DNA from: an uncultured SAR86 cluster bacterium | GTDB lineage: Bacteria; Pseudomonadota; Gammaproteobacteria; Magnimaribacterales; D2472 | Direction of reading: 5' to 3' | Assembly (NCBI GenBank): GCA_902518715.1 | Contig: CABYHU010000002.1 | Coordinates: forward strand, 1 to 37,355 | DNA length: 37,355 nt | Shown here: positions 11,626 to 31,483 of the stretch, in pieces | Numbering within the stretch: the first letter of the stretch is position 1 | Layout: the number at the start of each line of letters is the position of its first letter | Program-made: the position numbers and the translations under genes | The notes under the pieces: generated by a model | Database searches by the model: none | Told to the model about the DNA's origin: nothing | What the model saw: only the letters and a program-made list of their open reading frames with translations

Positions 11626-13578
11626 CTAGTTTATTGGTTTAAATTTTACTAAAAGATCATATAAATTACTTTTTCTTATTAGCTTTGCTCCAGGATCTTT
11701 AGTTAGGGGTCTCCAAGAATAATTAATTAGATTCCCAAAAACTGGTATATTAAAGTAGATTCCTTTATCAAAAGACCCTTCACCAAACTGGTCGGAAGAA
11801 ACATCTGTGAAAGAAGCGAAAATGCCAAATTTTGTTCCATTAGAGAATGACCTTGAAAAATCAATAGTGACACCCTCATCGCCTGCAAGATATTCACCAT
11901 AAGATATTTTTGCATCGAAGGGTATATATCCATAATTTCTGTAGTAAAAATTTAGATGTCCTGTTACGTTTGAGTAATCAAGCGTACCAAATTGCATTTT
12001 ATAATCTCTTTTTTTTACATCAAACATTTCAAAACCAATTGCATAATTAGAGCTTTGGTCAAAAAAAAGATATTCAAATCCAACTCCATTAAACATTTCC
12101 TCTAATATGCCTGTCGTGAACATTAAATGATGGTTTTCTCTTAGAGAAAAGTAGTAGTCGAATTGCGCCCTTCCAATAAAAACACCATCATTAAAGTTTT
12201 TAAGATAATCTTTAACATCCGATCTTACTTGAGCTGGATATGTATCCACAGGAGGATATTGAAGATCATCAAAATTGTCTGCAAGAGAATACTTTATATT
12301 TGAAGAAAAATAAAAATTATCCAAAAAGCTGTATTCAGTCGTGTTTTCAAGCATTAGAGCTCCTTTAAAAAATTCTTCTCGCGAAGCTAGGAAAGGTCTA
12401 AATGAAAGGCTCACATTATTTTTGAATCTTTTCTTAGTTTGCCTCTGATAAATTAATTTTGCATCTTCTTCAAAAGTATCGTCATATTCAGTCTTTGCTT
12501 TTAGGTCTACAATTCTAAGGTCTTTTTTTACTGGCTTATCGAAACCGGCATCATTGGAAGCTTTTCTTATAATATCATCGATAATATCTAAATTTGGATG
12601 GGTAAATTGGGTCATTTGGACGCCTATTTGCTCAGCACTTTCATAAATCTTATTTACACCTACTCCATTTGCATTTAGATTTCTAATAAATTTTATGTAC
12701 TTACTATCTGTATCTTTGTGCTGAGATTCCTTGAATCGGTATCGTGGTTTTGACGACTTTGGATTATCTTTATAGCTAAATCTTATTGATGCTGTGTTTC
12801 CTCTTTCAGTTGATATTCCAATAGTGAAATTTTTTGTTAAGTTGATATCTAGACCAAATGAAAATTCCTGTTCAGGCTCTTTATAACCAACTTTGCCAGG
12901 TGTAATAGTCGTGTCATATTCAACTTTAAATATGTATTTTTCGTCAAATGCATGAGTTATTCCGAAAAAGGGTGATGCTGTCGCGCCAGAAAAATATCTT
13001 GACGGTTGAAACTGTCCTCCTTGGTCCTCAATCTTATCTGGTCTTTCATAAAAATCATCACTTATGATACCTAAAGGATTTTTAAAGTTTCTCTTTGATC
13101 CGTCAAGAACTCCCCAGCCAAGTCCAAAATGTAGGTCCGTTTTTCGAATACCATAACTTCCAACAATATATTCTGAACTGTAAAATCCTGATCCAGCAAT
13201 ATCATTTATGCCTATGGCTATTGCCGGCCAGTCTCCCTCTTCTTTCAGTCGAAGTTTAAAATTAAATCCTTTATCTTTGTAGTCTTGATTGCAAACTGGA
13301 TCAAACTCTACATCGCAATAAGGTTTATTTTGGATATTTGTATAAAAAAAAGAGGCTTCTAGCCAATCAAAAGGTGACGAAGACATTGTTATTTTTTGAT
13401 CTGGGTTACCATCATATAGAGTAAATCCAAATGATGACTCATCATAAAATCTTGCAGTTGGAGTATTTATCAGCCCTATAACGCCATGGTTATTGAAAGA
13501 GTTATATGTAAAGCTATCTGCATGAGTATTATCAATATATAAAAAAAAAGCTAAAAAAATAGAGAAACTTTTTCTCAT
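11626..13578 (-). CDS. YjbH-like exopolysaccharide-associated outer-membrane protein
   Basis: A 650-residue protein of the YjbH family, predicted outer-membrane beta-barrel lipoprotein-type proteins linked to exopolysaccharide production in enterobacteria and vibrios. The mature N-terminus NHGVIGLINTPTARFYDESSF is the diagnostic family signature. The sequence is rich in alternating aromatic/polar strands and ends in strand-like segments, consistent with a barrel. The signal peptide (MRKSFSIFLAFFLYIDNTHA) has no lipobox Cys. The gene lies 6 bases after the SLBB export gene, the usual YjbH partner type. Its likely role is outer-membrane passage or assembly of a polysaccharide; the polymer is unknown. 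Confidence 0.82.
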   Translation of the reverse strand: MRKSFSIFLAFFLYIDNTHADSFTYNSFNNHGVIGLINTPTARFYDESSFGFTLYDGNPDQKITMSSSPFDWLEASFFYTNIQNKPYCDVEFDPVCNQDYKDKGFNFKLRLKEEGDWPAIAIGINDIAGSGFYSSEYIVGSYGIRKTDLHFGLGWGVLDGSKRNFKNPLGIISDDFYERPDKIEDQGGQFQPSRYFSGATASPFFGITHAFDEKYIFKVEYDTTITPGKVGYKEPEQEFSFGLDINLTKNFTIGISTERGNTASIRFSYKDNPKSSKPRYRFKESQHKDTDSKYIKFIRNLNANGVGVNKIYESAEQIGVQMTQFTHPNLDIIDDIIRKASNDAGFDKPVKKDLRIVDLKAKTEYDDTFEEDAKLIYQRQTKKRFKNNVSLSFRPFLASREEFFKGALMLENTTEYSFLDNFYFSSNIKYSLADNFDDLQYPPVDTYPAQVRSDVKDYLKNFNDGVFIGRAQFDYYFSLRENHHLMFTTGILEEMFNGVGFEYLFFDQSSNYAIGFEMFDVKKRDYKMQFGTLDYSNVTGHLNFYYRNYGYIPFDAKISYGEYLAGDEGVTIDFSRSFSNGTKFGIFASFTDVSSDQFGEGSFDKGIYFNIPVFGNLINYSWRPLTKDPGAKLIRKSNLYDLLVKFKPIN

Positions 13579-13584
13579 ATCTTT

Positions 13585-15861
13585 TTAATCACTTAAGTTG
13601 TCGATTGCCGCTGCAGAGAATGCTAGATTTGATAGAATCTGAGTTATGGGAGTCAAAGCATTTAAGACAGCGGAATCTACCGCTACCATTCTTGGAACAA
13701 TTACTGTGTCTCCTGCCTCAAGTCTCAAATCCTTTACAAAAATATTTCTTTTAAAATTTTCTACTGTTCCATCAGATTTTATTACATAAACAGAAGACTT
13801 ATCAGCAAGCTTTTTGTATCCGCCTGCAAGAACAATTGCATCATTTACTTTTAAATTTTCTTGGAATTGAAAAGAGGTAGGATTTAAGACTTCTCCGAAA
13901 ACATTAATACCGAATGGTTTATTCGGAACAATAATTTTATCTCCGTCACTTAGAATCGTATTTATTGATCCTTTTGATCCCGGACTATAATTACCAGCAA
14001 CTCTTCCTAAATTAGCTGGCTCAATAGTTTCAGTTAGTCTAGAGTAAAACTCTATATCGTTTAAAGGTTCATTAGGGTTAGCTTTCAAAGAAATTAACAT
14101 AGCCTCATTTAATTTTCTTTTTGCTATTTCAAGAGATTCTAGCTGCTTCTCTCTAATTGCTTCTCTATTTAGAATAATTCCTTCTAGGTACGCCTGCTCT
14201 TTAAATTCACCTACCGCCCTATACAAATCCTCAAGAGTGCTTCCAGGTGTGAGAGTGTAGTTACCAGGAAAACTGATAGCTCCGGAAATATTAACTGTAA
14301 TTAAATCATTAACTGGAGATCTAAGAATCAGCGTATGAAATTTGGAAGCAAGAGCCGTTATTTTTCGATAGTCTTCATAAATAACCTTGTCCTCAGAAGG
14401 AACAATATATGTGACATTTAACTCTATATCGGAAAGATCGAGTCCAAGAAGTTTGATTAAGTCGATCGGGGAAAAATTACCAAAAACTGGTATCTTAAAT
14501 ACATTATCTTTGTAAAATATATTTAATGAATAATCATCAATAAGATTCTGAGTCAGTAATTCTGTTTCATATGTTCTTAAATCCAAATCTGCAAAATATA
14601 ACTTAGAATTTGGGAAGAGCTTTATATCTTGATAAGTTGAGATGTCTTTTAAACTAAACAATTTCGTAGTTTTGACCATATTTTTTTGATCAAATTGTTC
14701 AAGTACTGCTAACCAAGGATATACATCCACGAATGTTAGATCTTTGATTAAGTCATGGAGATATTCATATTCATCAATTGAATAGAATCCTTGCTTTTCA
14801 ACTGCGCCCAAAACCTTGATGCTAAAATTTTCTTCACTTAAAAGACCAAAAACCTCAACCTTGAGGGCATTATTTAAAGTGTATCCTAAATTAGACGTAG
14901 TTTTTTGCTCAATTTTAGTCTCTTTAAGATTTAAAAAAGAAACAGAAATATTTGACTTATTTGCAGTTTGAGTAAATCCAAGTGCAAATCTTACTATATC
15001 TTCAATTGATTCATCTTCAAGGATCTCATAAATTGCTGGACGATTAATTTCACCATTTATCTCCACAAATTGTGATGCAGAATTAATAAGTATTGTGTCT
15101 CCGGATTCAATGGTTATATCATTTGATCTATCTCCATCTATAAGTAAATCATATAGATCAAATGTAAATTTCTCACCTGAACTCCTAATGAGAATTATTT
15201 TTCTAAGTGAGCCAATTTCTGATATCCCACCTGAATAAGAAAGAGCACTTGTAATGGTGCTAAATGGGCTTACCAAATATGTTCCTGGTGTTTTGACAGC
15301 TCCAACGATTGATATTTTTTTACTGCTTAAGTTTTTAATTGATAAATCAACTCTCACTCCAATGTAAACTTGATCAACAAGGTTTGAAATTTTTTCTTTA
15401 ACTTCTCCAAAAGTCTCTCCCGCAACCGAAATAGAGCCAATTTCAGGAAATAGGATTGTTCCATCTAGCTTTACATTTAGATCAAAAATATCTTCCTTAG
15501 ACCCAGATAAGATAACTGTAAATTTATCTCTTAAAGAAATTTTGTAATCATTCGGGAGTGGTAAATCTCCAACTGCCACAGTTGATGATGGCGATGTTGA
15601 AAAAAAGTCATACCCAAATTTTTTACCGTTGACCATATTGCTATCCATCAAATCTGATTCTTCTTGAAGAGTCTCATCTAGTTGGATAATATCTAATTCG
15701 CTTTCGGTATCTCTATTACTAATTTCACCGGATAAAGAATTTGTAATAAGCTCAATTTCATTATTCGAAAGATTTTGAAGTAATGTTTCATCTATTTCCT
15801 GAGCTGATAATAAAAAAGGAAAATACATTAAGATGAATATTTTTGCTAATTTTATGTGCAT
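13585..15861 (-). CDS. Multi-SLBB-domain polysaccharide export protein (Wza-like)
   Basis: About 758 residues. A signal peptide (MHIKLAKIFILMYFPFLLSAQ) is followed by a polysaccharide-export domain (near 95-180: LPNDYKISLRDKFTVILSG, GTILFPEIGSISVAGET). Several SLBB modules follow, seen as ISIVGAVKTPGTY, VEINGEINRPAIYEI, ISGAISFPGNYTLTPGS and INVFGEVLNPTSFQF...AIVLAGG. A C-terminal amphipathic helix (LNALTPITQILSNLAFSAAA) resembles the Wza helix that crosses the outer membrane. It is about twice the length of Wza and lacks the lipobox Cys. I prefer the ATG at 15861: the open frame reaches a TTG at 15885, but that would bury the signal peptide. GGAGG lies 17 bases before the ATG, which is unusually far. 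Confidence 0.87.
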   Translation of the reverse strand: MHIKLAKIFILMYFPFLLSAQEIDETLLQNLSNNEIELITNSLSGEISNRDTESELDIIQLDETLQEESDLMDSNMVNGKKFGYDFFSTSPSSTVAVGDLPLPNDYKISLRDKFTVILSGSKEDIFDLNVKLDGTILFPEIGSISVAGETFGEVKEKISNLVDQVYIGVRVDLSIKNLSSKKISIVGAVKTPGTYLVSPFSTITSALSYSGGISEIGSLRKIILIRSSGEKFTFDLYDLLIDGDRSNDITIESGDTILINSASQFVEINGEINRPAIYEILEDESIEDIVRFALGFTQTANKSNISVSFLNLKETKIEQKTTSNLGYTLNNALKVEVFGLLSEENFSIKVLGAVEKQGFYSIDEYEYLHDLIKDLTFVDVYPWLAVLEQFDQKNMVKTTKLFSLKDISTYQDIKLFPNSKLYFADLDLRTYETELLTQNLIDDYSLNIFYKDNVFKIPVFGNFSPIDLIKLLGLDLSDIELNVTYIVPSEDKVIYEDYRKITALASKFHTLILRSPVNDLITVNISGAISFPGNYTLTPGSTLEDLYRAVGEFKEQAYLEGIILNREAIREKQLESLEIAKRKLNEAMLISLKANPNEPLNDIEFYSRLTETIEPANLGRVAGNYSPGSKGSINTILSDGDKIIVPNKPFGINVFGEVLNPTSFQFQENLKVNDAIVLAGGYKKLADKSSVYVIKSDGTVENFKRNIFVKDLRLEAGDTVIVPRMVAVDSAVLNALTPITQILSNLAFSAAAIDNLSD

Positions 15862-15924
15862 ACTTTTGTTTTTGAGATCCTCCAAAGCTAATTATAAACG
15901 TTTAAAGAATTTAGTATCAAATTT

Positions 15925-20335: not shown

Positions 20336-21328
20336 TTATTCCGTATAAAATTCTTTTTTATTATCGATTTTTGATATGAATTCATAATCGAGGGTTCTCT
20401 CTAAAGCTTCATCTAGCTTAAATGGGGCTTGAAAATCTGTATTCCCAATAGAAGTATTAAATTGGGTTGTTTTAACAAATTTTTCAATCCTAATAGAGCT
20501 TATTGGGAATTTATAGCCTGATAAATTTGATAGTAAATCAAAAATTTTTCCTATGATTGCCCCAAAAAAATAAGGTAATCTAATCCCAACGTTTTCTTTA
20601 TTAAAAAGTTTCTTTCTAATTAATATTAAAAAAGAATTCATATCCAGGTCTGGTTTATCAACATAGTTATATATATGAAAGCCGTCGTTAATATTTGTGC
20701 AGTATTTTATGAAAGCAACAACATTTCTGACGTATGCCATGGATTTTAAATTATTGCCGCTGCCAATCATCACAAATCGTTTTTTTGAAACCTGATTAAG
20801 AAGATTATAAACATTTCCTCTATTCCCCTCTCCAAAGATAACTGTTGGTCTAATAATTACTAAACTTCGTGAGTCTGGATCTTTATAAAACCATTCCTTG
20901 TAAACGTTTTCAGCAAGATATTTCGTTCTTCCATAATCGTTGAAGTAGTTTGGTTCACCTGTTTCATCAGTATTTGCAGGAGCAAATCCATATACAGCTA
21001 CAGAACTTATAAAAATAATTTTATTGATCCCAAAATTTTCCGCAGCAATGCAAGTATTCTTTGCGCCTTGCACATTTATATCATCATATTTTGATATAGG
21101 CTTGATATCATCTCTATGCACTGCTGCTAGATTAATAAGAGTTGAGGTATTCGAAAGCTGCTTAAGTGAGTGCTGATCCTCAATATCAAGATATCGGATT
21201 TCTTTAGAATTATAAATATTATTTTTATCAAAGGCCTGAAATTCTATGCCCGAATTATTTAATTCTTCCCTGAGGTATGATCCGACAAAACCAGCAGCAC
21301 CAATTATTGATAAAAATTTTTTTGTCAT
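20336..21328 (-). CDS. NAD-dependent sugar epimerase/dehydratase (extended SDR)
   Basis: A 330-residue extended short-chain dehydrogenase of the UDP-glucose-4-epimerase type. The Rossmann motif GAAGFVG (about 10-16), the INLAA strand, the SSVAVYG loop and the catalytic YGRTK (Tyr and Lys of YxxxK) are all present, as is RPTVIFGEGNRGN, a substrate-binding segment. Such enzymes modify nucleotide sugars for polysaccharides, and members lie next to WecA-like transferases in many O-antigen loci. The product sugar cannot be predicted. The gene follows the Wzx-like gene by 4 bases and precedes the PdxH-like gene with no gap. Confidence 0.85.
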   Translation of the reverse strand: MTKKFLSIIGAAGFVGSYLREELNNSGIEFQAFDKNNIYNSKEIRYLDIEDQHSLKQLSNTSTLINLAAVHRDDIKPISKYDDINVQGAKNTCIAAENFGINKIIFISSVAVYGFAPANTDETGEPNYFNDYGRTKYLAENVYKEWFYKDPDSRSLVIIRPTVIFGEGNRGNVYNLLNQVSKKRFVMIGSGNNLKSMAYVRNVVAFIKYCTNINDGFHIYNYVDKPDLDMNSFLILIRKKLFNKENVGIRLPYFFGAIIGKIFDLLSNLSGYKFPISSIRIEKFVKTTQFNTSIGNTDFQAPFKLDEALERTLDYEFISKIDNKKEFYTE

Positions 21329-21332
21329 ATAT

Positions 21333-22520
21333 TTATAAATTAAGTTTAGAGATTTTAGTATTATATAGATATCTCACAAAACAAATAATAAAAAATATTA
21401 CCCAAAGTAATGAATAGGCTTGCACGTATAAAAATGTTGATTGTGAAAAATAAATCAGGAATCCTAATGAAATAATATAAGAAATATTTATTAAAAATAT
21501 TTGATTTGAGCTAAATAATCTTCCCCCAGATTGTCTTATGATGACGTATGAAGCTAGAGAAAAAATATAGCCACTCAGAATAAAAAATGATAGAAGATAA
21601 AGCCTATCAAGGCTAAGATTCATATTTTCTAAAATCCTATATCCAATTCCATATTTAAGAAAAATAGCCTGAATTCCCAAATAAAGAAGAACTAAGAAAA
21701 TTACTAAAACTACATATCTTGAGCTAGCTATAAAATCTTTTATTCTTACAAAGTCTTTGAAATAGAAAAAAATATAATTAACAGCTATGCCAGTTAGAAT
21801 TACTCCTACTCTATGAATTATTGCGATATGGGCATAATCATTACCTGCAAAATAACTGAATCCAATTCCCTCAATGAGTGGTGTAACAGTAAAAACTAAA
21901 TTATGCATTAAATTATTTTGGTCAACCTCGATAAGGTCTTCTGTAATTTTTAAAAATCCAAATTTTAGGATACAAAAAATGAGTAAAAACGAACTTGAAA
22001 TTAGGTAACAGTCTAAAAGAGAAAAGTTAGCATTTATTTGATAAGAGAGAATTAATATAGAGCAGACTAAAATGAGGTTTGCAATATTTATTGATAATGC
22101 CGTTTTACTTTTATCTGCGACTCTTAAATTTGTACTAAATATTATCAATAAAGATGCAAAGAAAAAATAAAAGCAGCTTTGAATCGAAGATTTAAAAGAA
22201 AAAAATTGAAAAAATGACGTTATTAAAATTAAGAAAGATACTAAAAGTATAATAATTAAGGCTTTTTTAGGAAGAATAAATGTTTCTATAAAACTTTTTT
22301 GTCTCTCAATGAGGGTTATGAGGTCTTCTCTAATGATTACAGTTATCAAGCCAATACCAAAAAATGGGACAGCAATTTCTGCAATTGATCTTTGCAAAAA
22401 GTCTGTAGATGCAGAGTACCCATAAAATACAAATTGAATAATTAGGCCAAGCAGTGCAGTTAAAAATGAGATAAAAAATGGAAAAAATATTTCTACTTTT
22501 TTAAATAAAGTGCTATTCAT
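21333..22520 (-). CDS. Polytopic membrane protein, probable Wzx-like O-unit flippase
   Basis: A 395-residue protein with about 11-12 hydrophobic segments (for example 11-32, 87-108, 113-130, 145-160). Its size, topology and operon position fit a Wzx/MATE-MVF-superfamily flippase that turns lipid-linked repeat units across the inner membrane. Sequence motifs for this family are weak, so the call rests on hydropathy and context, including an EpsG/Wzy-like polymerase in the same operon. It starts 8 bases inside the gtrA-like gene. Another undecaprenyl-linked-sugar transporter is possible. Confidence 0.55.
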   Translation of the reverse strand: MNSTLFKKVEIFFPFFISFLTALLGLIIQFVFYGYSASTDFLQRSIAEIAVPFFGIGLITVIIREDLITLIERQKSFIETFILPKKALIIILLVSFLILITSFFQFFSFKSSIQSCFYFFFASLLIIFSTNLRVADKSKTALSINIANLILVCSILILSYQINANFSLLDCYLISSSFLLIFCILKFGFLKITEDLIEVDQNNLMHNLVFTVTPLIEGIGFSYFAGNDYAHIAIIHRVGVILTGIAVNYIFFYFKDFVRIKDFIASSRYVVLVIFLVLLYLGIQAIFLKYGIGYRILENMNLSLDRLYLLSFFILSGYIFSLASYVIIRQSGGRLFSSNQIFLINISYIISLGFLIYFSQSTFLYVQAYSLLWVIFFIICFVRYLYNTKISKLNL

Positions 22521-22902
22521 TATGCATTCTAAAAGTGAAGAACTTATGAAGGAAATAACTTGATATGGCTGTTGATAAGACTCCTATAATGTGGGCTACA
22601 TCATTTGGGAAAAAATTAAATCCCAGCAGCGGGAAAATATAGTTTGATAATCCATTTGAAATTAAAAGTATAAAAATCAGCGAAAAAATATTTACTAAAT
22701 TAAATCTTACAAACTCTGTTGCTTGCCTTTCACCCGATTCAGTAAAAACATACTTTTTATTCAAGAAGTAAGCAGTTAAAACACCAAAAATATAAGCTAG
22801 AAATATTGAAAGTGAGTAAGTAAAAAAAAGATTGAAGAAAATCCTTGATATTATGTTTACAAGAGCTGCTACGCCACCTGTAAGTAAGAACCTTGTAAAC
22901 AT
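22513..22902 (-). CDS. GtrA-family membrane protein, candidate polyprenyl-phosphate-sugar translocator
   Basis: A 129-residue protein with four hydrophobic segments and the two GtrA half-motifs, FLNKKYVFTES and FLHKFFTFRM. GtrA-family proteins are thought to help move or anchor polyprenyl-phosphate sugars across the inner membrane. In mycobacteria a GtrA-family gene (Rv3789) is adjacent to dprE1/dprE2 and has been linked to decaprenyl-phospho-arabinose. Here the gene lies in the same operon as dprE1, dprE2 and the UbiA-type synthase, making the same role the natural inference. The ATG directly follows the stop of the upstream FAD oxidoreductase gene. Confidence 0.82.
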   Translation of the reverse strand: MFTRFLLTGGVAALVNIISRIFFNLFFTYSLSIFLAYIFGVLTAYFLNKKYVFTESGERQATEFVRFNLVNIFSLIFILLISNGLSNYIFPLLGFNFFPNDVAHIIGVLSTAISSYFLHKFFTFRMHNE

Positions 22903-24183
22903 CTATAGATTATTAACCATCTTTTTTGCAAATCCAATGCTTTCAGATATACCTCTATCTTCGGGATAATAAAAACATGTATCTGCAATCTGGAGACCTT
23001 TTATTGAAGTTTGTACACAAGGTATTTTTTCATAAAAATTAGGTTCGCAAATTGGCTGACTATATTTGAGCCTTCCAACATAAGAGAATAGAAAATCTTC
23101 CTTTTTAATTTTTTTGTTAATTTTACAAATATATTTCCTTGATTCATTTATGAAGAAATCATCAGGTTTTATAAATTTACTATTTGTTATTGGCATATAA
23201 TATGGAACGTAGACAACGCCAGCATCAACTTTTCTTAAATTAGAAAACTCAATTATTCCAGGTATTTCAAAATCTTCATCAATTATATTTAGCCAAAAAT
23301 TTTCAGTAATCTGTTTTTTAATCTTATGAACTACACAAACTACTCCAATATTTTCAATTGAATCATAATTTTGTTTTTCTTCATCAGTTAGTTGAGGAAC
23401 CATCTTACTAATTAATGGAGTAGGAATAGTAGAAATAACTTTTTCAAAAGTATGCTCATTTTTGTCAGTGATTACTTTCATATGTGTATCATCTATTGAC
23501 AAAACTTCCTTTACTTGGGTTGAAAGAAATATCTCTCCATCGTGTTTTTCAATGAATTTTACAAGAGCATTTACTAACGTTTCACTCCCTCCATCTATGT
23601 AACCTAACTCCTCTTTCATAATGGATTTTCTTGAATTTCCTATCCTTTTAATTCTAGTAGCGATCCATGATGCAGAGATTTTGTCTGTATATTCATAAAA
23701 TTTTAGTTTACTAAGTCTTTCCCACATTAGAGAGTAAACCCTTTTACCTAATTTTGAGATCATCCAATCCTTCATTGTTAGATGCTCTATATCATTGAAG
23801 TCTTTCTTTTTAGTAAGAAAAAAAACAAAAAAACCATATCGAATTTTTTCAAATATGTTCATAAGTGGGAAAAATAATAAAGCTAGAGGATTTCCCCATG
23901 AGTAATGCTTACCAGAAATAAAATAGCCCATTTTTGTCTCTTTCCAAATAAGTTTTTCTCTAATGCATAAATCATCCAATAACTGGAAAGTATGTTTATC
24001 ACTTTTACAAATAAAATGATAAAAACGCTCAATAGACATTCCATCAAGATCAAAATGAGCAGCCATTCCACCTGGAATTCTATCTACCTCAAAAATTGAT
24101 ACTCTATAACCTTTCTTAATTGCATAATAAGCAGCTGATAATCCCATTGCTCCAGCCCCAATAATTGCAATCCTCTTTTTCAT
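22903..24183 (-). CDS. FAD/NAD(P)-binding oxidoreductase (amine-oxidase/protoporphyrinogen-oxidase-like)
   Basis: About 426 residues from MKKRIAIIGAGAMGLSAAYY. The N-terminal dinucleotide fold GxGxxG (9-14) ends in the acidic residue of VSIFEVD, followed by the GGMAAHF flavin-contact motif. A second FAD-binding element is seen near the C-terminus (GLQIADTC...DRGISESIGFA). The middle is the substrate region of the flavin amine oxidase fold. Relatives are common in polysaccharide clusters but have no assigned reaction; it is not a clear UDP-galactopyranose mutase. I start at 24183, one base after the stop of the upstream epimerase; the frame is open to 24234 but that overlaps the neighbour. Role in arabinose or repeat-unit chemistry is unknown. 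Confidence 0.72.
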   Translation of the reverse strand: MKKRIAIIGAGAMGLSAAYYAIKKGYRVSIFEVDRIPGGMAAHFDLDGMSIERFYHFICKSDKHTFQLLDDLCIREKLIWKETKMGYFISGKHYSWGNPLALLFFPLMNIFEKIRYGFFVFFLTKKKDFNDIEHLTMKDWMISKLGKRVYSLMWERLSKLKFYEYTDKISASWIATRIKRIGNSRKSIMKEELGYIDGGSETLVNALVKFIEKHDGEIFLSTQVKEVLSIDDTHMKVITDKNEHTFEKVISTIPTPLISKMVPQLTDEEKQNYDSIENIGVVCVVHKIKKQITENFWLNIIDEDFEIPGIIEFSNLRKVDAGVVYVPYYMPITNSKFIKPDDFFINESRKYICKINKKIKKEDFLFSYVGRLKYSQPICEPNFYEKIPCVQTSIKGLQIADTCFYYPEDRGISESIGFAKKMVNNL

Positions 24184-24184
24184 T

Positions 24185-25117
24185 CTAGAATTTAAGGACA
24201 ATGTTTGAGTATTTTTCATCATTAAATGTCTCATTTAGAGCAGCTTTAAGAGAAGTAGAATTTATATTAAAAATAGATGGCCAGTCTATGATTTCAAACT
24301 CTTCGGGGATTACCAAAGCTTCCAACTGTGAAGTTGTGAAAGGTGGATTGCTTGAAAATAAAGAATATACTTTTAGTAATATCCAGAAGAGCGTATATGG
24401 AATCTTTAAAATATGTGATCTTCCCTTAGATGCTGACTTTAACATCTTAATAAGGTCTATGTAATAAATCTTCTCTAGACCGGAAATATTAAATCTCATA
24501 TTCACTTTCTTATTGAAGATGCATGACTCAATTATTTTGCAAAAATCACCAACATATAGAGGCTGTCTAATATATTTACCATCTCCGGGTATTGGGAAAA
24601 TTAATGATCTTTTCAAAAACCTTGATAGCCAGCCTAAATGTTTTCTGTCGAACCAGCCAAACATAAGCGTAGGTCGAAGTACTGTGAAAGGAATTCCATA
24701 TTTATCAATTAACTTTTCTTGCTCGGTCTTAGTATTTGTATAGAAATCATTAGCTTCTGAGAAGACTACGGAAGAGCTAATTAGAATTACATGATTAATA
24801 GAATATTTTTTACATGCCTCTAATACATTCTTTGTTGCGATTACATTATTATCGACAAAATCTTTTTTATTTAATGAACTAATCTGAGCATGATTGATGA
24901 TTACCGTATCAATATCCTCAAAATGCTTCTCCCAGCCAGATAATTCACTAAGATCAGCTTCAACGAAATTGATTTCTGGATGAGTATTTATAAAAATTTT
25001 ATTATTTTCTTTATGTTTATCAATACCGATAATCTTCAGATCATTCCTTTTTTTTAATCTTGTAACAAGATTCTGACCTACCAATCCAGCGCTTCCAGTT
25101 ATTAAAATATTCTTCAT
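24185..25117 (-). CDS. NAD-dependent epimerase/dehydratase family protein
   Basis: A 310-residue extended SDR. GSAGLVG (near 8-14), VEADLSEL, the ISSSVVF strand, a YTNTK that fits YxxxK, and RPTLMFGWFDRKH are present. Compared with its paralogue at 20336-21328, the region just before the active Tyr is shorter. A C-terminal hydrophobic segment (IPYTLFWILLKVYSLF) might associate with membrane, as seen in SDRs that act on lipid-linked sugars. It lies between dprE2 and the FAD oxidoreductase with 1-3 base gaps, so it may act on the same lipid-linked donor, but no specific step of the known arabinose pathway needs it. Confidence 0.78.
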   Translation of the reverse strand: MKNILITGSAGLVGQNLVTRLKKRNDLKIIGIDKHKENNKIFINTHPEINFVEADLSELSGWEKHFEDIDTVIINHAQISSLNKKDFVDNNVIATKNVLEACKKYSINHVILISSSVVFSEANDFYTNTKTEQEKLIDKYGIPFTVLRPTLMFGWFDRKHLGWLSRFLKRSLIFPIPGDGKYIRQPLYVGDFCKIIESCIFNKKVNMRFNISGLEKIYYIDLIKMLKSASKGRSHILKIPYTLFWILLKVYSLFSSNPPFTTSQLEALVIPEEFEIIDWPSIFNINSTSLKAALNETFNDEKYSNIVLKF

Positions 25118-25120
25118 TTT

Positions 25121-25876
25121 TTAAAAATTAGTTCTATTAAAGATTATGTTAGGTAAATTTCGGATTACAAACATTATAAATCTCCAATAGTTAGGAGTAT
25201 AAACTAGAAACTTTTTTCTTTTTATAGCCTTAGTTATATCCTCTGCTACCTTATCAGCGGTTGACCAAATAAAGCCTTTTTCAAAATCTTTGGTCATGGG
25301 TGTATCAATAAGACCTGGCTTAACAAGGGTAAAAAAAACTTCTTTGTAACTGAAAAACCTATGGTTAAGACCCTTTATATAAAATTCAATGCTTGCTTTT
25401 GAAGTGCCATAGATATAATTCTTTTTTCTGGCTCTGTCACCAGCAACAGATCCTATTAATATTAAATGTCCAAAAGTTTGTTTTTCAAAAAATTTAACTA
25501 TTTTTTCAGACCATAAAATATATGATGTTAAATTTACATCAACTTGTTCTCTTAGATAATTTAGGTTTGTAGATTTTTCGTTATCAGTTAAAGATCCTTG
25601 AAAAAGTAAAGCTTTATCAATTTTTTCTATTTTCTGAAGACAGTTTTCAATCTCTTTTGGACAAAGAATATCAATTTGATAATTCATTAAAGTAAAATTT
25701 ACTGATCTCGGCTCATTCTCAAATATGTTTGTTGATGGTTCTAACCTTGAAAAAAGATGAAAATTAATATGACATTCAGGGCTTAACTCATCGATGGTTT
25801 TTTTAATATATGATTTTGCAATGTAAGAAGTTGATCCGATTATAACTATGTCAATATTTTTGGATGTTTTATTCAT
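25121..25876 (-). CDS. dprE2: DprE2-like decaprenylphospho-2-keto-ribose reductase
   Basis: A 251-residue SDR. In mycobacteria DprE2 reduces the 2-keto intermediate made by DprE1 to polyprenyl-phospho-D-arabinofuranose. The cofactor motif GSTSYIA (14-20), catalytic Ser143 and Y156-x3-K160 are present. The stretch GSVAGDRARKKNYIYGTSK closely matches the mycobacterial VAGDR.R..NF.YG..K, and the C-terminus WRFIMFVIRNLPNIIF mirrors the hydrophobic tail of mycobacterial DprE2, which is much more specific than generic SDR similarity. The start overlaps dprE1 by 8 bases. Adjacency to dprE1 and the UbiA-type synthase makes the assignment strong. Confidence 0.87.
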   Translation of the reverse strand: MNKTSKNIDIVIIGSTSYIAKSYIKKTIDELSPECHINFHLFSRLEPSTNIFENEPRSVNFTLMNYQIDILCPKEIENCLQKIEKIDKALLFQGSLTDNEKSTNLNYLREQVDVNLTSYILWSEKIVKFFEKQTFGHLILIGSVAGDRARKKNYIYGTSKASIEFYIKGLNHRFFSYKEVFFTLVKPGLIDTPMTKDFEKGFIWSTADKVAEDITKAIKRKKFLVYTPNYWRFIMFVIRNLPNIIFNRTNF

Positions 25877-27164
25877 GTGTAACCCTTTCCCAGAATGCTG
25901 AACTTATGTTTGGGTCTTTAGCATCATCAAGCTCTTTCCAATTCTTAAAACAGTTTTTATAAATCTCAGATGACATATTTGCATCTTTTGCAGGATATAT
26001 CCTTCCACCATACTTATTGCATATTGAATCAAGCTTACTTAATAGATTAACTGTGTCTTTGCCATTATTTGGGAAGTCTAAAGCAAGGCTGGTTCCTTCG
26101 ATACAAAATGAATTTCTTCCAGGTGACAGCTCAGGTCCATGATTTTTTAGGACAGCCAGGAATGAGCCTTGCCCTGACCTACTTATTAAGCTTAGAAGCT
26201 CTTGAGTTGCATCGAATGCAAATTTTTTAGGAACAATACACTGATGCTGATAGAATCCCCTTTTTCCATACATCCTGTTCCAGTTTTTAATACTATCAAG
26301 CGGATATAAACTTTTTTTATAATTAGCTATCGCTGATTTAGACTGCTTTGAATGAATGCTTTGATACATAAAGTTAAATGCTTTGATTGAAGACTTATTA
26401 AGTGCCCAATTTGGTAAGCTAAATGGAAGTGATAAAAAATGCATATCCTTTTCAAAAATAAGTTTTCCGTCATCACAATGTTTGGACCTACTTAGTATTC
26501 CGCGGCCAATATTTTTTTCTGGTGCAAGGCAGTCTACCCATGCAGCAACATATTCCCATTCATTACTTTCTTTACTCAACTCAAAAAAATCGTCTAAAGA
26601 TTCATATCTAATGTTTTCAGTAACTAGATTTGTGGATGAAATCTTCTTTAGCTTTATTTCAACCCAGTCAATGAAACCAGTTAGTCCTAGACCGCTAATT
26701 GTTAGATTAAATAATTCTTGATTTTGTTCTCTTGATAGCTCGAGATATGATCCATCACTTCTTTTCAAACCTATTGATTTAACAAAATTACCAAAACTTC
26801 CTGATTTGTGATGATTCTTGCCATGAACATCATTTGCAACCGCGCCTCCAAGAGATACATAGCTTGACCCTGGAGATACATTCAAAAACCAACCATGTGG
26901 TATGCTATGCTCAAGAATCTGCTTCAGCGAAATACCTGATTTCGCTTTCATAACTCCTGATTCCCAATCTACAGAAATTATTTCATTGTAATCTTGTGTG
27001 CAGACTACTCCACCAGAGTTGTTAATTGGTAAGTCGCCATAAGATCTTCCAAACCCAAAAAAAGTAGTAGGCTTGTTATGAAAAATATTTTTATCTGTGG
27101 ATTTTAAAAAGGTAACTTCGCCATTTGTATGATGTATATTCCCCCAACTTGATAAATTCCTCAT
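25869..27164 (-). CDS. dprE1: DprE1-like decaprenylphospho-ribose 2-oxidase
   Basis: A 431-residue FAD enzyme of the vanillyl-alcohol-oxidase/D-lactone oxidase fold; mycobacterial DprE1 (461 aa) oxidises C2 of polyprenyl-phospho-ribose. The diagnostic stretches are GFGRSYGD (37-44), GGAVANDVHGKNHHKSGSFGN (about 107-126), LGLTGFI and the YPAKD motif with the active-site Lys (K393). HGKNHH holds the flavin-contact His region. The Cys of mycobacterial DprE1 that benzothiazinones attack (C387, in NICVDFP) is Ala here (A361, in SLALDFP). The product should act at the inner membrane with DprE2. The gene follows HAD-UbiA by 2 bases. Confidence 0.9.
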   Translation of the reverse strand: MRNLSSWGNIHHTNGEVTFLKSTDKNIFHNKPTTFFGFGRSYGDLPINNSGGVVCTQDYNEIISVDWESGVMKAKSGISLKQILEHSIPHGWFLNVSPGSSYVSLGGAVANDVHGKNHHKSGSFGNFVKSIGLKRSDGSYLELSREQNQELFNLTISGLGLTGFIDWVEIKLKKISSTNLVTENIRYESLDDFFELSKESNEWEYVAAWVDCLAPEKNIGRGILSRSKHCDDGKLIFEKDMHFLSLPFSLPNWALNKSSIKAFNFMYQSIHSKQSKSAIANYKKSLYPLDSIKNWNRMYGKRGFYQHQCIVPKKFAFDATQELLSLISRSGQGSFLAVLKNHGPELSPGRNSFCIEGTSLALDFPNNGKDTVNLLSKLDSICNKYGGRIYPAKDANMSSEIYKNCFKNWKELDDAKDPNISSAFWERVTHE

Positions 27165-27166
27165 AT

Positions 27167-28609
27167 CTAAAAAATCTGCTCTGCAAGAAGAATAACTATA
27201 ATTAAAAATAATGTGAACCTACTAATATTATCCTTTAATGCAAAAACTATTGGATCATCATTTACTAAATCTCTAATCATTAAGAACCAAAATCTTAGAA
27301 ACCACCAAACGATTAAAAAAATAATTGAGATTATTGAAATATTATTTGATACAACTACTGAAAGAGTAAGCATTAAGTAAATTAGAATTATTACTAAAGC
27401 TGCAAAACCAGAAGCAATACCAGAAGACATGATAAATATAATATCATCTGACGAGTAGCCTCTGCCTGGAAGAGAAAATTTACTCTGAGCACTTTGTGAA
27501 GTATTTGTTTTTTTTAGTTCAATAAATCTTTTACCCAATGCAAGTGAGAGAAAAATAAAACCTAAAGAAAGCATAAACCAAACATTAACTTCAAGGGATG
27601 CAACAACACCACCTGTGAAAACTCTCCAGCAAAATAAAAAAGAAAGAGTCATTACATCCAAAATAGCTATCCTCTTAAGAAAAAAAGAATATGTTATAGA
27701 TAAAAGTGCATATGCTCCCAAAATTAAAATCAAATTGTTTCCTACGATGCTTGATAATAAGAGTCCAAGCGAGAAAAGAATTAAGATCATTGTGACTGCA
27801 AATGGTATTGAGAGGTCTCCAGATGGTATTGGTCTAAACTTTTTTGATTTATGCCTTCTGTCAGACTCAATATCCAACAGATCATTTAGTAAATATGTAG
27901 CACTTGCAACAAGCCCAAATGAAAAAAAAGTTAGAAGAAGCAAATATACCCAATCGCTATTAAAATAATTTATATTTAAAAAAGGAATAGCAAAAACTAA
28001 AATATTTTTAAACCATTGGTGAATACGCATAGATTGGATTAAGGTTTTAAAAAAGCTTTTCTTTCTTGAAATAATTTTTAAGTTTATTCCCTTTTTAATT
28101 GCTTCATTAGCTGTATCTTTATTAATATTAATTCCATAGGCTTTATCAGCCTCTTCCCACACAGGAATATCATCTTTTGAGTTACCAATATAATCAAAGT
28201 CTTTACCAAAATTTGTTTGAATGTAATTAAGCTTATTTTTTCCAATTAAATTAATTTCTTCTGAGCTTCCTTTATAAGAATTAAAAATCTTTAGATGCTC
28301 TGCAACCTTTGCAACAAAAGCATTTGGTGAGCCAGATATTAATATCATTTTTCGATTCTTGAAATCTGATTCTTCAAAGATGTCTTTGTTATAAGGTAGA
28401 AACTCAGGATCAAAGTCTTTTAGATACTTATTAGAGAGGAAGTTTTTTAAAAATGCTTTCCCTTTATAAACACCTCTTAATAATTCGACGAAACCTGTAA
28501 ATTTTGTCTCTTTAAGGTGCCTTATGCAGAGTTCGTATGAAATATCTCCATTTGATAAAGTGCCATCGAGATCGATTATTAGTGGTTTTTCATATTCAGC
28601 TGCAGACAT
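27167..28609 (-). CDS. HAD phosphatase-UbiA prenyltransferase fusion (5-phosphoribosyl-1-diphosphate:polyprenyl-phosphate type)
   Basis: A 480-residue two-domain protein. Residues 1-180 form a HAD-superfamily hydrolase: DLDGT (D13, D15), ISGSP (91-95) and GNSKDDIPVW (142-151, acidic motif IV). Residues 195-480 are a UbiA-type integral membrane transferase with about nine membrane segments. RIHQWFKNILVF resembles RPRQWVKN of the mycobacterial DPPR synthase (Rv3806c), and NDLLDIESDRRHKSKKFRPI (242-261) is the metal-diphosphate motif. The UbiA part would join phosphoribose to polyprenyl phosphate; the HAD part is a candidate for removing the 5-phosphate, a step done by a separate enzyme in mycobacteria. 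It lies directly upstream of dprE1. Confidence 0.85.
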   Translation of the reverse strand: MSAAEYEKPLIIDLDGTLSNGDISYELCIRHLKETKFTGFVELLRGVYKGKAFLKNFLSNKYLKDFDPEFLPYNKDIFEESDFKNRKMILISGSPNAFVAKVAEHLKIFNSYKGSSEEINLIGKNKLNYIQTNFGKDFDYIGNSKDDIPVWEEADKAYGININKDTANEAIKKGINLKIISRKKSFFKTLIQSMRIHQWFKNILVFAIPFLNINYFNSDWVYLLLLTFFSFGLVASATYLLNDLLDIESDRRHKSKKFRPIPSGDLSIPFAVTMILILFSLGLLLSSIVGNNLILILGAYALLSITYSFFLKRIAILDVMTLSFLFCWRVFTGGVVASLEVNVWFMLSLGFIFLSLALGKRFIELKKTNTSQSAQSKFSLPGRGYSSDDIIFIMSSGIASGFAALVIILIYLMLTLSVVVSNNISIISIIFLIVWWFLRFWFLMIRDLVNDDPIVFALKDNISRFTLFLIIVILLAEQIF

Positions 28610-30281
28610 TGTTATACCTATAAAAATTTGTTTTAAAAAGCTCTAAATGAAAAAGCGTTTCATCCCTGCAATATCCAATTGAAAAAAGTGGGCCATTTTC
28701 AAGTTTAAATCTAAAATAAAATGAGTCTTTCTCAAGACGACTATTTTCTATGTTAAAGATATCATAAAAGTTTGGGACTTGTGATTTACTATAATGATTA
28801 ATTTCATTTTCAGTATAAATGAAGCTACCTTCATAAAATTCATCCTTAAAACTAAGATTTTTATTAAGACCTTTAATAAGCTCAACGGAAAGTTCTTCAT
28901 AATAATCATCTGTAATTAATAGCGCAGACCACCGATAATTCTCATTTAACTCAACTATTCTTTCAATATCATCTATAAGATCTTTATCATGAATCATTAA
29001 AGCCCTTCTTTGAGTTTCATATGGAATGATGGAATTGTAGCTTTCACCAAGAATAATTATGCCTCCAGGATCAACTTTTTCATTAATGACTAAAATTGCT
29101 TCATTATTTGAGGGCGTGATATATATACTTTTAAGATAAAAATAACCAAGACTTATGCTTAAAGTAATTGCTAATGCAAAGCCTGGTAGTAACTTTAAGT
29201 TTCTATTTTCGAAGAAATAATTACCAAGCAAGACTGAAAAAAATGCAATTAAGAAAATTCCATTAGCATAAGTGTAATAATCATGTCTTAGATGAAGATT
29301 GGTAAAAATTAAAATAGGGGCAATGAAGGCTATTAAGAAACTTCCTAATAGTAATTTTTTTTCTAAAGCAAGCTCCAAAAAGAAGTTTCTTACAGGAAGA
29401 AAGAAAGTAATTATAAATATTGCCCCAATTGAAAATATCATAGACTTAATAATGATAAATAAAATTAAAAAGACATTAGTTTTTTGATCAAGTGTTCCAT
29501 AACTCCAATCATTTAAATTCTTAGAGCTAATAGCCTCTCCAACTGGGGTTAACTCTCTGAGCGTATCGGTAAATCCAGTCCAGGAGAAAGCTATTAAAAC
29601 ATTTGGAAGAATAAAAATAATCAGGAAAACAAGGATTTGCTTTAAATCTAATTTACCAATAATAAAAAGAGAGAGGATATTACAAGTTAAAAAAGTTCCA
29701 AATGGAAACCAAGTTGTTGGCTTAGTGATGCTTGCAATCAATCCAAAGATAATTGAAACGAAAAGAAAAAGAAATGATTGATTCTCTAAAAACTTCAAAG
29801 CATATTTAAGGTATAAAGATGCTAAAAGAATTGCAGAGGACTCTATCATTACAGCAAAAGAGTAAGAAAAATAAATAGGAGAAGCTAGTAGAATCAATAA
29901 AAATGTATTATTGCTATCCTTTGTTAGACCTAAAATATCTAAAATATTTCTCCAAATCAAAACACTTCCAAAGAAAAATAAAAGGCTTAACAATCTTCCA
30001 ATATCTCTTATGTTATTGGTATCTTGTTCAGCAAATATTGAAACAAAGAATTGATAGAAAGGGAATTCAAAAGGTATCATCCAAGGATATCCCATAACTG
30101 GTGTCTCATATTTGAGAATATTTGAAATGTTGTCTATGAGATAATAAGCGGAAATTGCTGTTTGAGATTCCCTAAAAGGTGCAAGAAAAAAAATGTCAGG
30201 TAATTGTAGAAAAACAAGTAGATATAAACCAACAAAAAAAATAAAAAGAACTCTTGTGTTTAGGTAAGTAAAAATTTTCAA
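28596..30281 (-). CDS. GT-C family membrane glycosyltransferase (GT39/ArnT-like), candidate arabinosyltransferase
   Basis: A 561-residue protein with roughly 11 membrane segments and a C-terminal periplasmic region (about 410-561). The first periplasmic loop carries FRESQTA (36-42), in the position where GT-C transferases place a catalytic acidic residue. GT-C enzymes use polyprenyl-phosphate sugars as donors, so an enzyme using the arabinosyl-lipid made by its neighbours is a reasonable inference, though the donor could differ. The start is TTG (30281-30279), overlapping the GT4 stop as TTGA. It overlaps HAD-UbiA by 14 bases at its other end. Confidence 0.72.
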   Translation of the reverse strand: MKIFTYLNTRVLFIFFVGLYLLVFLQLPDIFFLAPFRESQTAISAYYLIDNISNILKYETPVMGYPWMIPFEFPFYQFFVSIFAEQDTNNIRDIGRLLSLLFFFGSVLIWRNILDILGLTKDSNNTFLLILLASPIYFSYSFAVMIESSAILLASLYLKYALKFLENQSFLFLFVSIIFGLIASITKPTTWFPFGTFLTCNILSLFIIGKLDLKQILVFLIIFILPNVLIAFSWTGFTDTLRELTPVGEAISSKNLNDWSYGTLDQKTNVFLILFIIIKSMIFSIGAIFIITFFLPVRNFFLELALEKKLLLGSFLIAFIAPILIFTNLHLRHDYYTYANGIFLIAFFSVLLGNYFFENRNLKLLPGFALAITLSISLGYFYLKSIYITPSNNEAILVINEKVDPGGIIILGESYNSIIPYETQRRALMIHDKDLIDDIERIVELNENYRWSALLITDDYYEELSVELIKGLNKNLSFKDEFYEGSFIYTENEINHYSKSQVPNFYDIFNIENSRLEKDSFYFRFKLENGPLFSIGYCRDETLFHLELFKTNFYRYNNVCS

Positions 30282-31483
30282 TTTATGACTTTCCTAAATT
30301 CGTCAATAACTGCATCAACTGTGTAACTTCTTAAAAAGGCATTGAAAGAATTTTCACCCATTTTTTTAAGATCATATTTATTTTGGTAGCAATCCATAAT
30401 AATTTCTGAGAGTTTTTCGTCATCTCCAGGCTCAACAACAAAACCACATTTATGTTCATCTATTGTTAAAGCAATTTCTGAATTTTTTGGAACAGATGCG
30501 ACTATAGGGCGGCCTGATGCTAGAATTCCATATAATTTTGATGGAACTGCGACACCTTCTAAATTGTTATTTAATGATATCAATGATAAATGGCAAGCTG
30601 CTAAACTTTGATCAAGGTCTTCTAAGTCGACAAAATCAATCCAAGAAATATTTTTAAGCCCAAGCTGATTGGCAAGGTCCTCTGAATGCTGCCTTTTGAT
30701 GCCTCCTCCAATAAAATTATAAGTTATCTTATTTATATTCATGGTTTTTGCAGCACATCTTACATATGTATCCATATCATGCCAAAGCCCCATGTTACCA
30801 GAATACTGGATTACAAATTTATCATTTAATTTTCTTTCATTTATAAACTTTGAATCACGAAACAATATAGATTTTTTTGGTTTTATAGAGCTCCAATGAG
30901 GAATGTAAGTAATTTTATTTTTTATATTATATTTTTCAAGGACATTAAACATATCTCTTCCAATAACAATCACCTTATCGGTCATTTTTAGTGAGATTCT
31001 ATTCAGAAAAATCCAGAATCTTGCAAAAATAGAATTTTGCTTTAAATTTCCTAGAGCTATTAAACCCTCAGGATAAATATCTAAATAAACATAAATATTC
31101 TCATTCCTTCTTAAAAGCTTTGCAAAAGCCATTATCCATAAATTTGAAAAAGGATTTGTTACCCCCATCAGTTTAGAGTTTTTTAGAAAAATAATTCTAA
31201 AGAGAACTTCGATATTGAATGAAAAATAAGATAATGCTCTATTTAAGAATCCTGATTTTACATCTATTTTTAATCCACATCTGATTACCTCAAAATTTTC
31301 ATACTTTTCACGTTTAATTATTTTTTTGTTTTTTAAGGATCTTGCTGAGGTAGATGGATAGCCAGAGAAAACTTTTATCTCATAGTCTCTTGAAAGACTT
31401 CTCATTAAATCGGTGAAAAGTATACTTGTTGCCTGATCATCTGGATAAAAAACCTGACAAATCAAAGATAGGTTTTTTTTCAT
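30278..31483 (-). CDS. GT4 family glycosyltransferase
   Basis: A 401-residue cytoplasmic glycosyltransferase of the GT-B fold. The N-terminal domain has LICQVFYPDDQATS; the C-terminal domain has FVIQYSGNMGLWHDMDTYV and the GT4 donor-binding motif EGVAVPSKLYGILASGRPIVAS. It resembles WbuB-type enzymes that add a sugar to lipid-linked O-units. Donor and acceptor are unknown. It lies 13 bases after the GDP-mannose-epimerase-like gene, so a GDP-sugar donor is possible but unproven. Confidence 0.87.
   Translation of the reverse strand: MKKNLSLICQVFYPDDQATSILFTDLMRSLSRDYEIKVFSGYPSTSARSLKNKKIIKREKYENFEVIRCGLKIDVKSGFLNRALSYFSFNIEVLFRIIFLKNSKLMGVTNPFSNLWIMAFAKLLRRNENIYVYLDIYPEGLIALGNLKQNSIFARFWIFLNRISLKMTDKVIVIGRDMFNVLEKYNIKNKITYIPHWSSIKPKKSILFRDSKFINERKLNDKFVIQYSGNMGLWHDMDTYVRCAAKTMNINKITYNFIGGGIKRQHSEDLANQLGLKNISWIDFVDLEDLDQSLAACHLSLISLNNNLEGVAVPSKLYGILASGRPIVASVPKNSEIALTIDEHKCGFVVEPGDDEKLSEIIMDCYQNKYDLKKMGENSFNAFLRSYTVDAVIDEFRKVIN

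Follow-up and report, generated by a model that had tools for sequence, protein, structure and literature searches.

The window analysed here, a 37,355-nucleotide stretch of DNA from an uncultured SAR86 cluster bacterium (GenBank assembly GCA_902518715.1, contig CABYHU010000002.1, positions 1 to 37,355), carries on its minus strand seven genes that in part resemble the mycobacterial pathway to polyprenyl-phosphate-arabinose, by which the cell wall of the tuberculosis bacterium is made. Our findings suggest that Gram-negative bacteria trade a cassette of this kind for a further pentose sugar. In the scheme that we favor, and hold to be somewhat better than evenly probable as a whole, a mobile six-gene cassette (HAD-UbiA, DprE1, DprE2, Epi, FADox and GtrA) together with a locus-specific GT-C glycosyltransferase would yield an exported further pentose. 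UbiA would transfer 5-phosphoribose from 5-phosphoribosyl 1-pyrophosphate (PRPP) to polyprenyl phosphate (probably undecaprenyl phosphate), the HAD domain would remove the 5-phosphate, and oxidation of C2 by DprE1 and its reduction by DprE2 would give polyprenyl-phosphate-D-arabinofuranose. Epi, a short-chain dehydrogenase/reductase (SDR), and FADox, a flavin adenine dinucleotide (FAD) enzyme, may then turn this product into another lipid-linked pentose before flipping; the cassette-specific GtrA would flip the modified lipid-linked pentose, and in the periplasm the GT-C protein would attach the pentose to lipopolysaccharide (LPS) or a different surface glycan. The UbiA, HAD and DprE steps are predicted from homology, conserved residues and precedent, and the assignment of Epi, FADox and the cassette GtrA to the pathway rests on their co-occurrence with it.

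Seven genes of the window form one operon

Minus-strand genes occupy the window between about 37.2 and 19.7 kb, with near-zero intergenic gaps (checked over 31.5–19.7 kb). An original prediction, made from the letters of this DNA, had seen a seven-gene arabinose-donor run within an LPS operon. All seven open reading frames were found on the minus strand where it had placed them, separated by gaps of −50 to +3 bases, and the motifs that it had quoted are present in the window proteins. The seven genes are a single operon.

The HAD-UbiA fusion (27167..28609, minus strand), the predicted polyprenyl-phosphate 5-phosphoribosyltransferase and 5-phosphatase, scores 435 bits with NF006088/PRK08238, above the cut-off of 351, and its best match among solved structures is Rv3806c (E 1.8e-29). 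Of the 13 Rv3806c residues in contact with PRPP, Mg2+ or decaprenyl phosphate (the set given in PMC10994848), 11 are identical in the window UbiA when it is aligned by sequence, not by structural superposition, to the solved protein; the differences are Q135S and Y157F, and a Phe at the Y157 position is also present in some mycobacteria (PMC10994848). The PRPP-binding residues on which the original prediction depended are thus kept, and the window UbiA is predicted to be an Rv3806c-type polyprenyl-phosphate 5-phosphoribosyltransferase with PRPP transfer activity. The HAD motifs DLDGT and GNSKDD are intact in the fusion protein, and the role proposed for this domain, that of the 5-phosphatase, has an experimental precedent in the HAD-UbiA step of Citrobacter (PMC11127046).

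The DprE1-like FAD oxidase (25869..27164, minus strand) has Mycobacterium tuberculosis DprE1 as its best match in the PDB (E 1.6e-57) and retains the equivalents of H132, K134, Y60, Q334, Q336, K367 and K418. In a DprE1 tree it groups with the DprE1 homologues of UbiA-DprE1-DprE2 loci, which is the placement that the original prediction called for, and aldonolactone oxidases are weak matches to it. C387 of mycobacterial DprE1 is replaced by Ala at residue 361 of the window protein; since benzothiazinones modify C387 covalently, the usual binding mode of covalent benzothiazinones is not expected here. The adjoining DprE2-like short-chain reductase (25121..25876, minus strand) has DprE2 (21gq_C) as its best PDB match (E 8e-17) and contains the S-Y-K motif. 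Homology and residues thus agree with a pathway of the decaprenylphosphoryl arabinose (DPA) type, from PRPP through polyprenyl-phosphate-ribose to polyprenyl-phosphate-arabinose, in a Gram-negative LPS locus, as had been proposed.

Epi and FADox accompany DprE1 in genomes and on plasmids

A class survey was made as one draw of 369 genomes. DprE1 homologues (E to 1e-30) occur in 69 of them, and FADox (>380 bits) and Epi (>270 bits) in 13 each, with limits that were set post hoc at visible score gaps; the next-best scores are much lower (207 bits for FADox and 90 bits for Epi). The two sets of 13 genomes are identical, span 10 families and lie entirely within the 69 DprE1-positive genomes, and the association of FADox with DprE1, among genomes that are not mutually independent, has a Fisher p of 1.3e-10 (7e-10 after the window genome is dropped). 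In an independent collection, the PLSDB plasmids, Epi and FADox were found in one and the same set of seven records, from Rhodobacteraceae SC52, four Rhizobium, Agrobacterium salinitolerans and Burkholderia stagnalis, and all seven are ordered UbiA-DprE1-DprE2-Epi-FADox-GtrA. High-scoring Epi and FADox were therefore never seen without DprE1 in the class genomes, and all seven plasmids carry DprE1 as well. The original prediction had attached the epimerase and the FAD enzyme to the pathway, and their joint occurrence in 13 genomes and seven plasmids bears this out.

The genes are gathered at one locus in 10 of the 13 genomes. Natural separation of Epi and FADox from DprE1 in the other three was considered and mostly rejected: the operon of G342 is broken within Epi (residues 4–70 lie at 2,041 kb and residues 76–310 at 728 kb), and G403 has a contig that stops in the gene preceding Epi. 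These breaks explain two of the cases, and G091 remains. Across genomes and plasmids the order is almost always UbiA-DprE1-DprE2-(GT-C)-Epi-FADox-GtrA. Two Pseudomonas genomes reproduce the exact order of the window with a polytopic GT-C-like gene leading, and a third Pseudomonas genome has two cassettes near each other. Six of the seven genes recur in order as the cassette, and the GT-C gene is locus-specific. Pairwise distances correlate among the cassette enzymes (r 0.74–0.92), a result that either co-transfer or shared ancestry could give. The DprE1 tree shows a patchy distribution of extended cassettes, those with Epi and FADox (12 label changes), and gain, loss or transfer of the extension has therefore occurred repeatedly. 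In phage records FADox was not found, and one partial, unannotated UbiA-like match was seen.

The survey also turned up several variants. Genome G557 (L174, L175) has two seven-gene cassettes, separated by about 12 kb, whose GT-C genes differ, possibly one donor sugar for two acceptors. A related S-adenosylmethionine (SAM) methyltransferase adjoins extended cassettes in four unrelated genomes (L009, 16709–17377; L066, 8889–9566; L177, 8285–8947; L185, 4766–5443), and may indicate methylation of the sugar in some hosts. On Burkholderia stagnalis plasmid plas2 (L185, 1–12000) the cassette adjoins genes for an isonitrile synthase, an EryCIII-like glycosyltransferase and a methyltransferase, and with such neighbors it may there decorate a small molecule and not a polysaccharide. 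Three extended cassettes (L057, L058 and L060) have UbiA without a fused HAD, and no HAD gene was evident among the immediate upstream neighbors checked. On pNGR234a, a Rhizobium symbiosis plasmid, HAD-UbiA adjoins another SDR and a long hypothetical protein, with neither DprE1 nor DprE2 present (L189, 5941–10507), possibly a ribose- or xylose-type system; the idea that its SDR is a close relative of Epi was rejected on comparison. DprE1 homologues are thus common beyond the Actinobacteria; besides the 69 class genomes, they occur in loci that bear the names Pelagibacteraceae, SAR324, Spirochaetia, Planctomycetaceae, Desulfonatronospira and Acidimicrobiales.

The extended cassette has its own GtrA subfamily

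The window GtrA (22513..22902, minus strand), the proposed flippase, scores 60 bits with PF04138 (gathering cut-off 26). Every GtrA that adjoins Epi-FADox scores 48–123 bits with the window GtrA and 0–11 with the GtrA of core loci, and every core-locus GtrA shows the opposite pattern, with 63–96 bits for core GtrA and 7–19 for that of the window in the loci outside SAR86. Two GtrA subfamilies thus track the presence and absence of Epi and FADox with no overlap. These comparisons make GtrA the conserved exporter candidate of the cassette, and since the putative flippase switches along with the two extra enzymes, they suggest that the GtrA of the extended cassette carries a changed cargo.

Epi, FADox and the GT-C protein

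Epi (24185..25117, minus strand), the putative first extension enzyme, is an extended SDR (PF01370, 89 bits; cut-off 21) in which S114–S116, Y126 and K130 are invariant across 13 relatives, so that it looks like a catalytically competent SDR. FADox (22903..24180, minus strand), the putative second, scores 476 bits with NF005560/PRK07233 (curated cut-off 252), a family of FAD oxidoreductases annotated merely as hypothetical protein. Its reading frame is open from 24234, but translation probably starts at codon 19 (24180), since both a 50-base overlap with Epi and a low-confidence N-terminus then vanish. An AlphaFold2 (AF2) model of FADox (predicted local distance difference test score, pLDDT, 91.7) has the fold of the superfamily that includes monoamine oxidases (MAO), protoporphyrinogen oxidases (PPOX), desaturases and UDP-galactopyranose mutase (UGM). 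Since phytoene desaturase, PPOX, amine oxidases and UGM are all among its fold neighbors, the fold picks out no particular reaction.

The gene at 28596..30281 (minus strand) encodes a 561-residue putative GT-C glycosyltransferase, proposed to be a periplasmic pentosyltransferase from its transmembrane segment count, a conserved motif and its context. The motif, FR[EQ][ST]QTA..YETPV.G.PW.IPFEFP.YQ, is common to two relatives, each in a genome with an extended cassette. The protein has no match in Pfam or NCBIfam, and a profile of three homologues found no match among solved structures.

Which sugar is exported?

The original prediction had taken the transferred sugar to be simply D-arabinofuranose. 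This part of it does not fit well with the distribution of the genes: the P. syringae and P. paraeruginosa types lack Epi and FADox (FADox is absent genome-wide from five P. syringae-group genomes), and core loci have the other GtrA, so that the extended cassette probably exports another sugar. Plain D-arabinofuranose on LPS is possible, and is less favored than a modified pentose. If ordinary polyprenyl-phosphate-D-arabinofuranose were exported, Epi and FADox would perform an accessory step that leaves the transferred sugar as it is, or act elsewhere on the glycan. The UbiA-DprE1-DprE2 core is complete in the window, and DprE1 and DprE2 suffice for arabinofuranose in mycobacteria and in candidate O-antigen systems (PMC11127046); however, such a role sits poorly with the lack of any high-scoring Epi or FADox apart from DprE1, with the adjacency and order of the six genes and with the switch in GtrA subfamily, and we consider it unlikely. 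Since an FAD enzyme with an SDR is the same class pairing as DprE1 with DprE2, a second inversion is one option for a modified sugar. Epi and FADox could be a second oxidize-and-reduce pair that acts at another carbon and gives a lipid-linked pentose new to bacterial glycans, for example D-lyxofuranose (inversion at C2 and C3). We offer this reading tentatively and consider it unlikely. D-lyxofuranose is absent from all solved structures (PMC11127046), and no usable link emerged from literature searches for glycans with lyxofuranose or L-xylose; if a reading of this type is true, the cassette would be a module, exchanged horizontally, that supplies a new surface sugar.

The relatives of the two enzymes allow other reactions. 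UGM interconverts the pyranose and furanose forms of a sugar, and its place among the fold neighbors of FADox (4dsg, Z 30.9) raises the idea that FADox acts in a UGM-like manner on the polyprenyl-phosphate-pentose, exchanging furanose and pyranose, with Epi, which resembles nucleotide-sugar epimerases and dehydratases, inverting a carbon locked in the furanose. UGM is not the nearest relative of FADox by sequence, however, and the likeness observed is one of fold, which many families share. We hold a ring change to be quite improbable. Slightly less probable again is that FADox and Epi alter the polyprenyl chain itself, for example its saturation or isomerization, and so mark a dedicated carrier for the arabinose donor and the cassette GtrA. 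FADox does match phytoene desaturase and HpnE profiles, phytoene desaturase is its top structural neighbor (Z 34.5), and Epi resembles NDUFA9-like SDRs; but ranking within a superfamily is weak evidence when PPOX and UGM score almost as high, and Epi resembles sugar epimerases as well.

Several observations weigh against the favored scheme, in which the cassette and the GT-C protein deliver a modified pentose. The window DprE1 scores 292 bits with NF053785, below the equivalog cut-off of 500, and is thus a homologue, probably DprE1-like in function, and not an equivalog under the NCBI rule; likewise DprE2 scores 107 bits with NF053786 (equivalog cut-off 250), and the PRK07102 model scores it higher, at 159 bits, which is also below that model's own cut-off. 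The family profile searches that the original prediction had proposed therefore place GtrA and HAD-UbiA above their cut-offs and DprE1 and DprE2 below theirs. The FADox superfamily is associated more with amine oxidation, desaturation and the UGM reaction than with alcohol oxidation, and G091 is the one genome in which the genes are truly dispersed. The GT-C fold is unproven, and a structure prediction with three homologues gave a pLDDT of 39. Finally, both the modification of the sugar by Epi and FADox and the action of the GT-C protein on LPS are inferred, LPS being deduced as the acceptor from the neighboring genes.

Relation to known pentose donor systems

The general idea of polyprenyl-phosphate-arabinose in Gram-negative bacteria is already published, and the newer part is the Epi/FADox extension. 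HAD-UbiA fusions were reported in 2024 to supply polyprenyl-phosphate-pentofuranose for O antigens, with DprE1/E2 for arabinose (PMC11127046), and work of 2011, cited in PMC12369383, is an earlier source for the idea. In the three-component system of Citrobacter youngae O1/O2 (GT136; PMC11127046), as is predicted for the window, HAD-UbiA uses PRPP to charge polyprenyl phosphate with ribose, the O-antigen locus encodes a flippase and a GT-C protein, and auxiliary epimerases define the pentose. The Citrobacter flippase is of the MATE type, whereas the conserved cassette of the window has GtrA, followed by a polytopic protein that has no family match. The candidate three-component arabinofuranose systems (PMC11127046) share DprE1/E2 homologues with the window, but in the window these are joined by a second SDR and an FAD oxidoreductase; that paper also refers to systems, so far unexplained, that have more than one candidate epimerase or GT-C protein. 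Azorhizobium noeCHOP (PMC2443382) is another case of mycobacterial-like arabinose donor genes in a Gram-negative bacterium, the acceptor there being the Nod factor.

The mycobacterial DPA pathway (Rv3806c, Rv3807c, DprE1, DprE2 and Rv3789) shares with the window the UbiA, DprE1, DprE2 and small exporter types and their catalytic residues. The window differs in having HAD in place of the Rv3807c phosphatase, the additional Epi and FADox, and an LPS setting that is accessory, where the mycobacterial pathway serves an essential cell wall. Locus L099 belongs to a genome that we take to be P. paraeruginosa PA7. There PSPA7_6245-6251 (PMC12369383) clusters UbiA, GtrA, DprE1, DprE2 and a polytopic protein as the window does, but has no Epi or FADox in the locus, a core-type GtrA, no HAD fusion and a DprE1 of a separate clade; PA7/Pa5196 genes of this kind make the D-arabinofuranose of type IV pili (PMC12369383).

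In a literature search for which supplementary files and most subscription papers were outside reach, no description of a UbiA-DprE1-DprE2-Epi-FADox-GtrA cassette was found. DprE1/DprE2 chemistry is a leading tuberculosis drug target and is mostly regarded as mycobacterial; here 69 of 369 class genomes have DprE1 homologues, and a subset of them adds a conserved two-enzyme extension and an exporter subfamily of its own. If the effect of Epi and FADox is to diversify the lipid-linked pentose, Gram-negative bacteria have an undescribed branch of surface-sugar biochemistry that is spread via plasmids and LPS islands, and culturable hosts of the cassette (Pseudomonas, Rhizobium, Agrobacterium and Rhodobacteraceae) are available for a readout of the sugar.

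The cassette lies in a variable island of SAR86

The window genome (1.06 Mb, 85% complete) is one of three among 61 relatives, itself counted, that have DprE1. It belongs to the order of genomes whose DprE1 loci match SAR86 AG-390-O18 and MED-G81. In each of the two other DprE1 systems of SAR86 the genes are arranged as UbiA-GtrA-DprE1-DprE2, and Epi and FADox are absent. The pdxH/infC flank is kept in eight same-genus genomes, the adjoining glycan genes vary, and no cassette gene occurs within the stretches of the island read in those eight. The cassette thus sits in a hypervariable accessory LPS island. A single ancestral cassette in the SAR86 relatives was rejected, since the island genes differ in the eight same-genus genomes and a tree in which the window DprE1 was constrained to group with the other SAR86 DprE1 proteins was disfavored (approximately unbiased test, p 0.02; one test on a quick tree). 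The closest cassette is that on the plasmid of Rhodobacteraceae bacterium SC52 (FADox 56%, Epi 56%, DprE1 49% and HAD-UbiA 40%), and the window cassette was probably acquired horizontally, which is the simplest reading.

Neighboring genes

The surrounding genes (gmhA, the hldE halves, gmhB, a GT9-like gene, an EpsG/Wzy-like gene and a GT4 gene) make the setting an LPS/surface-glycan locus. The GT4 glycosyltransferase (30278..31483, minus strand; PF00534) is WcaI-like (NF007640, 121 bits, under the cut-off) and is the upstream neighbor of the GT-C gene in the same operon. Beyond GtrA the operon continues on the minus strand into a polytopic membrane protein (21333..22520), whose gene overlaps GtrA by 8 bases; the protein is possibly a Wzx/MATE-like flippase and had no family match in Pfam and NCBIfam searches. 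The next gene encodes an SDR, the second NAD-dependent epimerase of the island (20336..21328, minus strand; PF01370, 87 bits), and other SAR86 genomes have relatives of it at the same edge, with scores of 412 bits (L167) and about 105 bits (L166 and L168).

Elsewhere in the window (11626–15885) a YjbH family protein adjoins a Wza-like (Poly_export/SLBB) protein, which suggests a second surface polysaccharide export system. At 10409–11539 lies a repeat protein with a long C-terminal Gly-Thr run (GTGTGT...), the length of which may vary.

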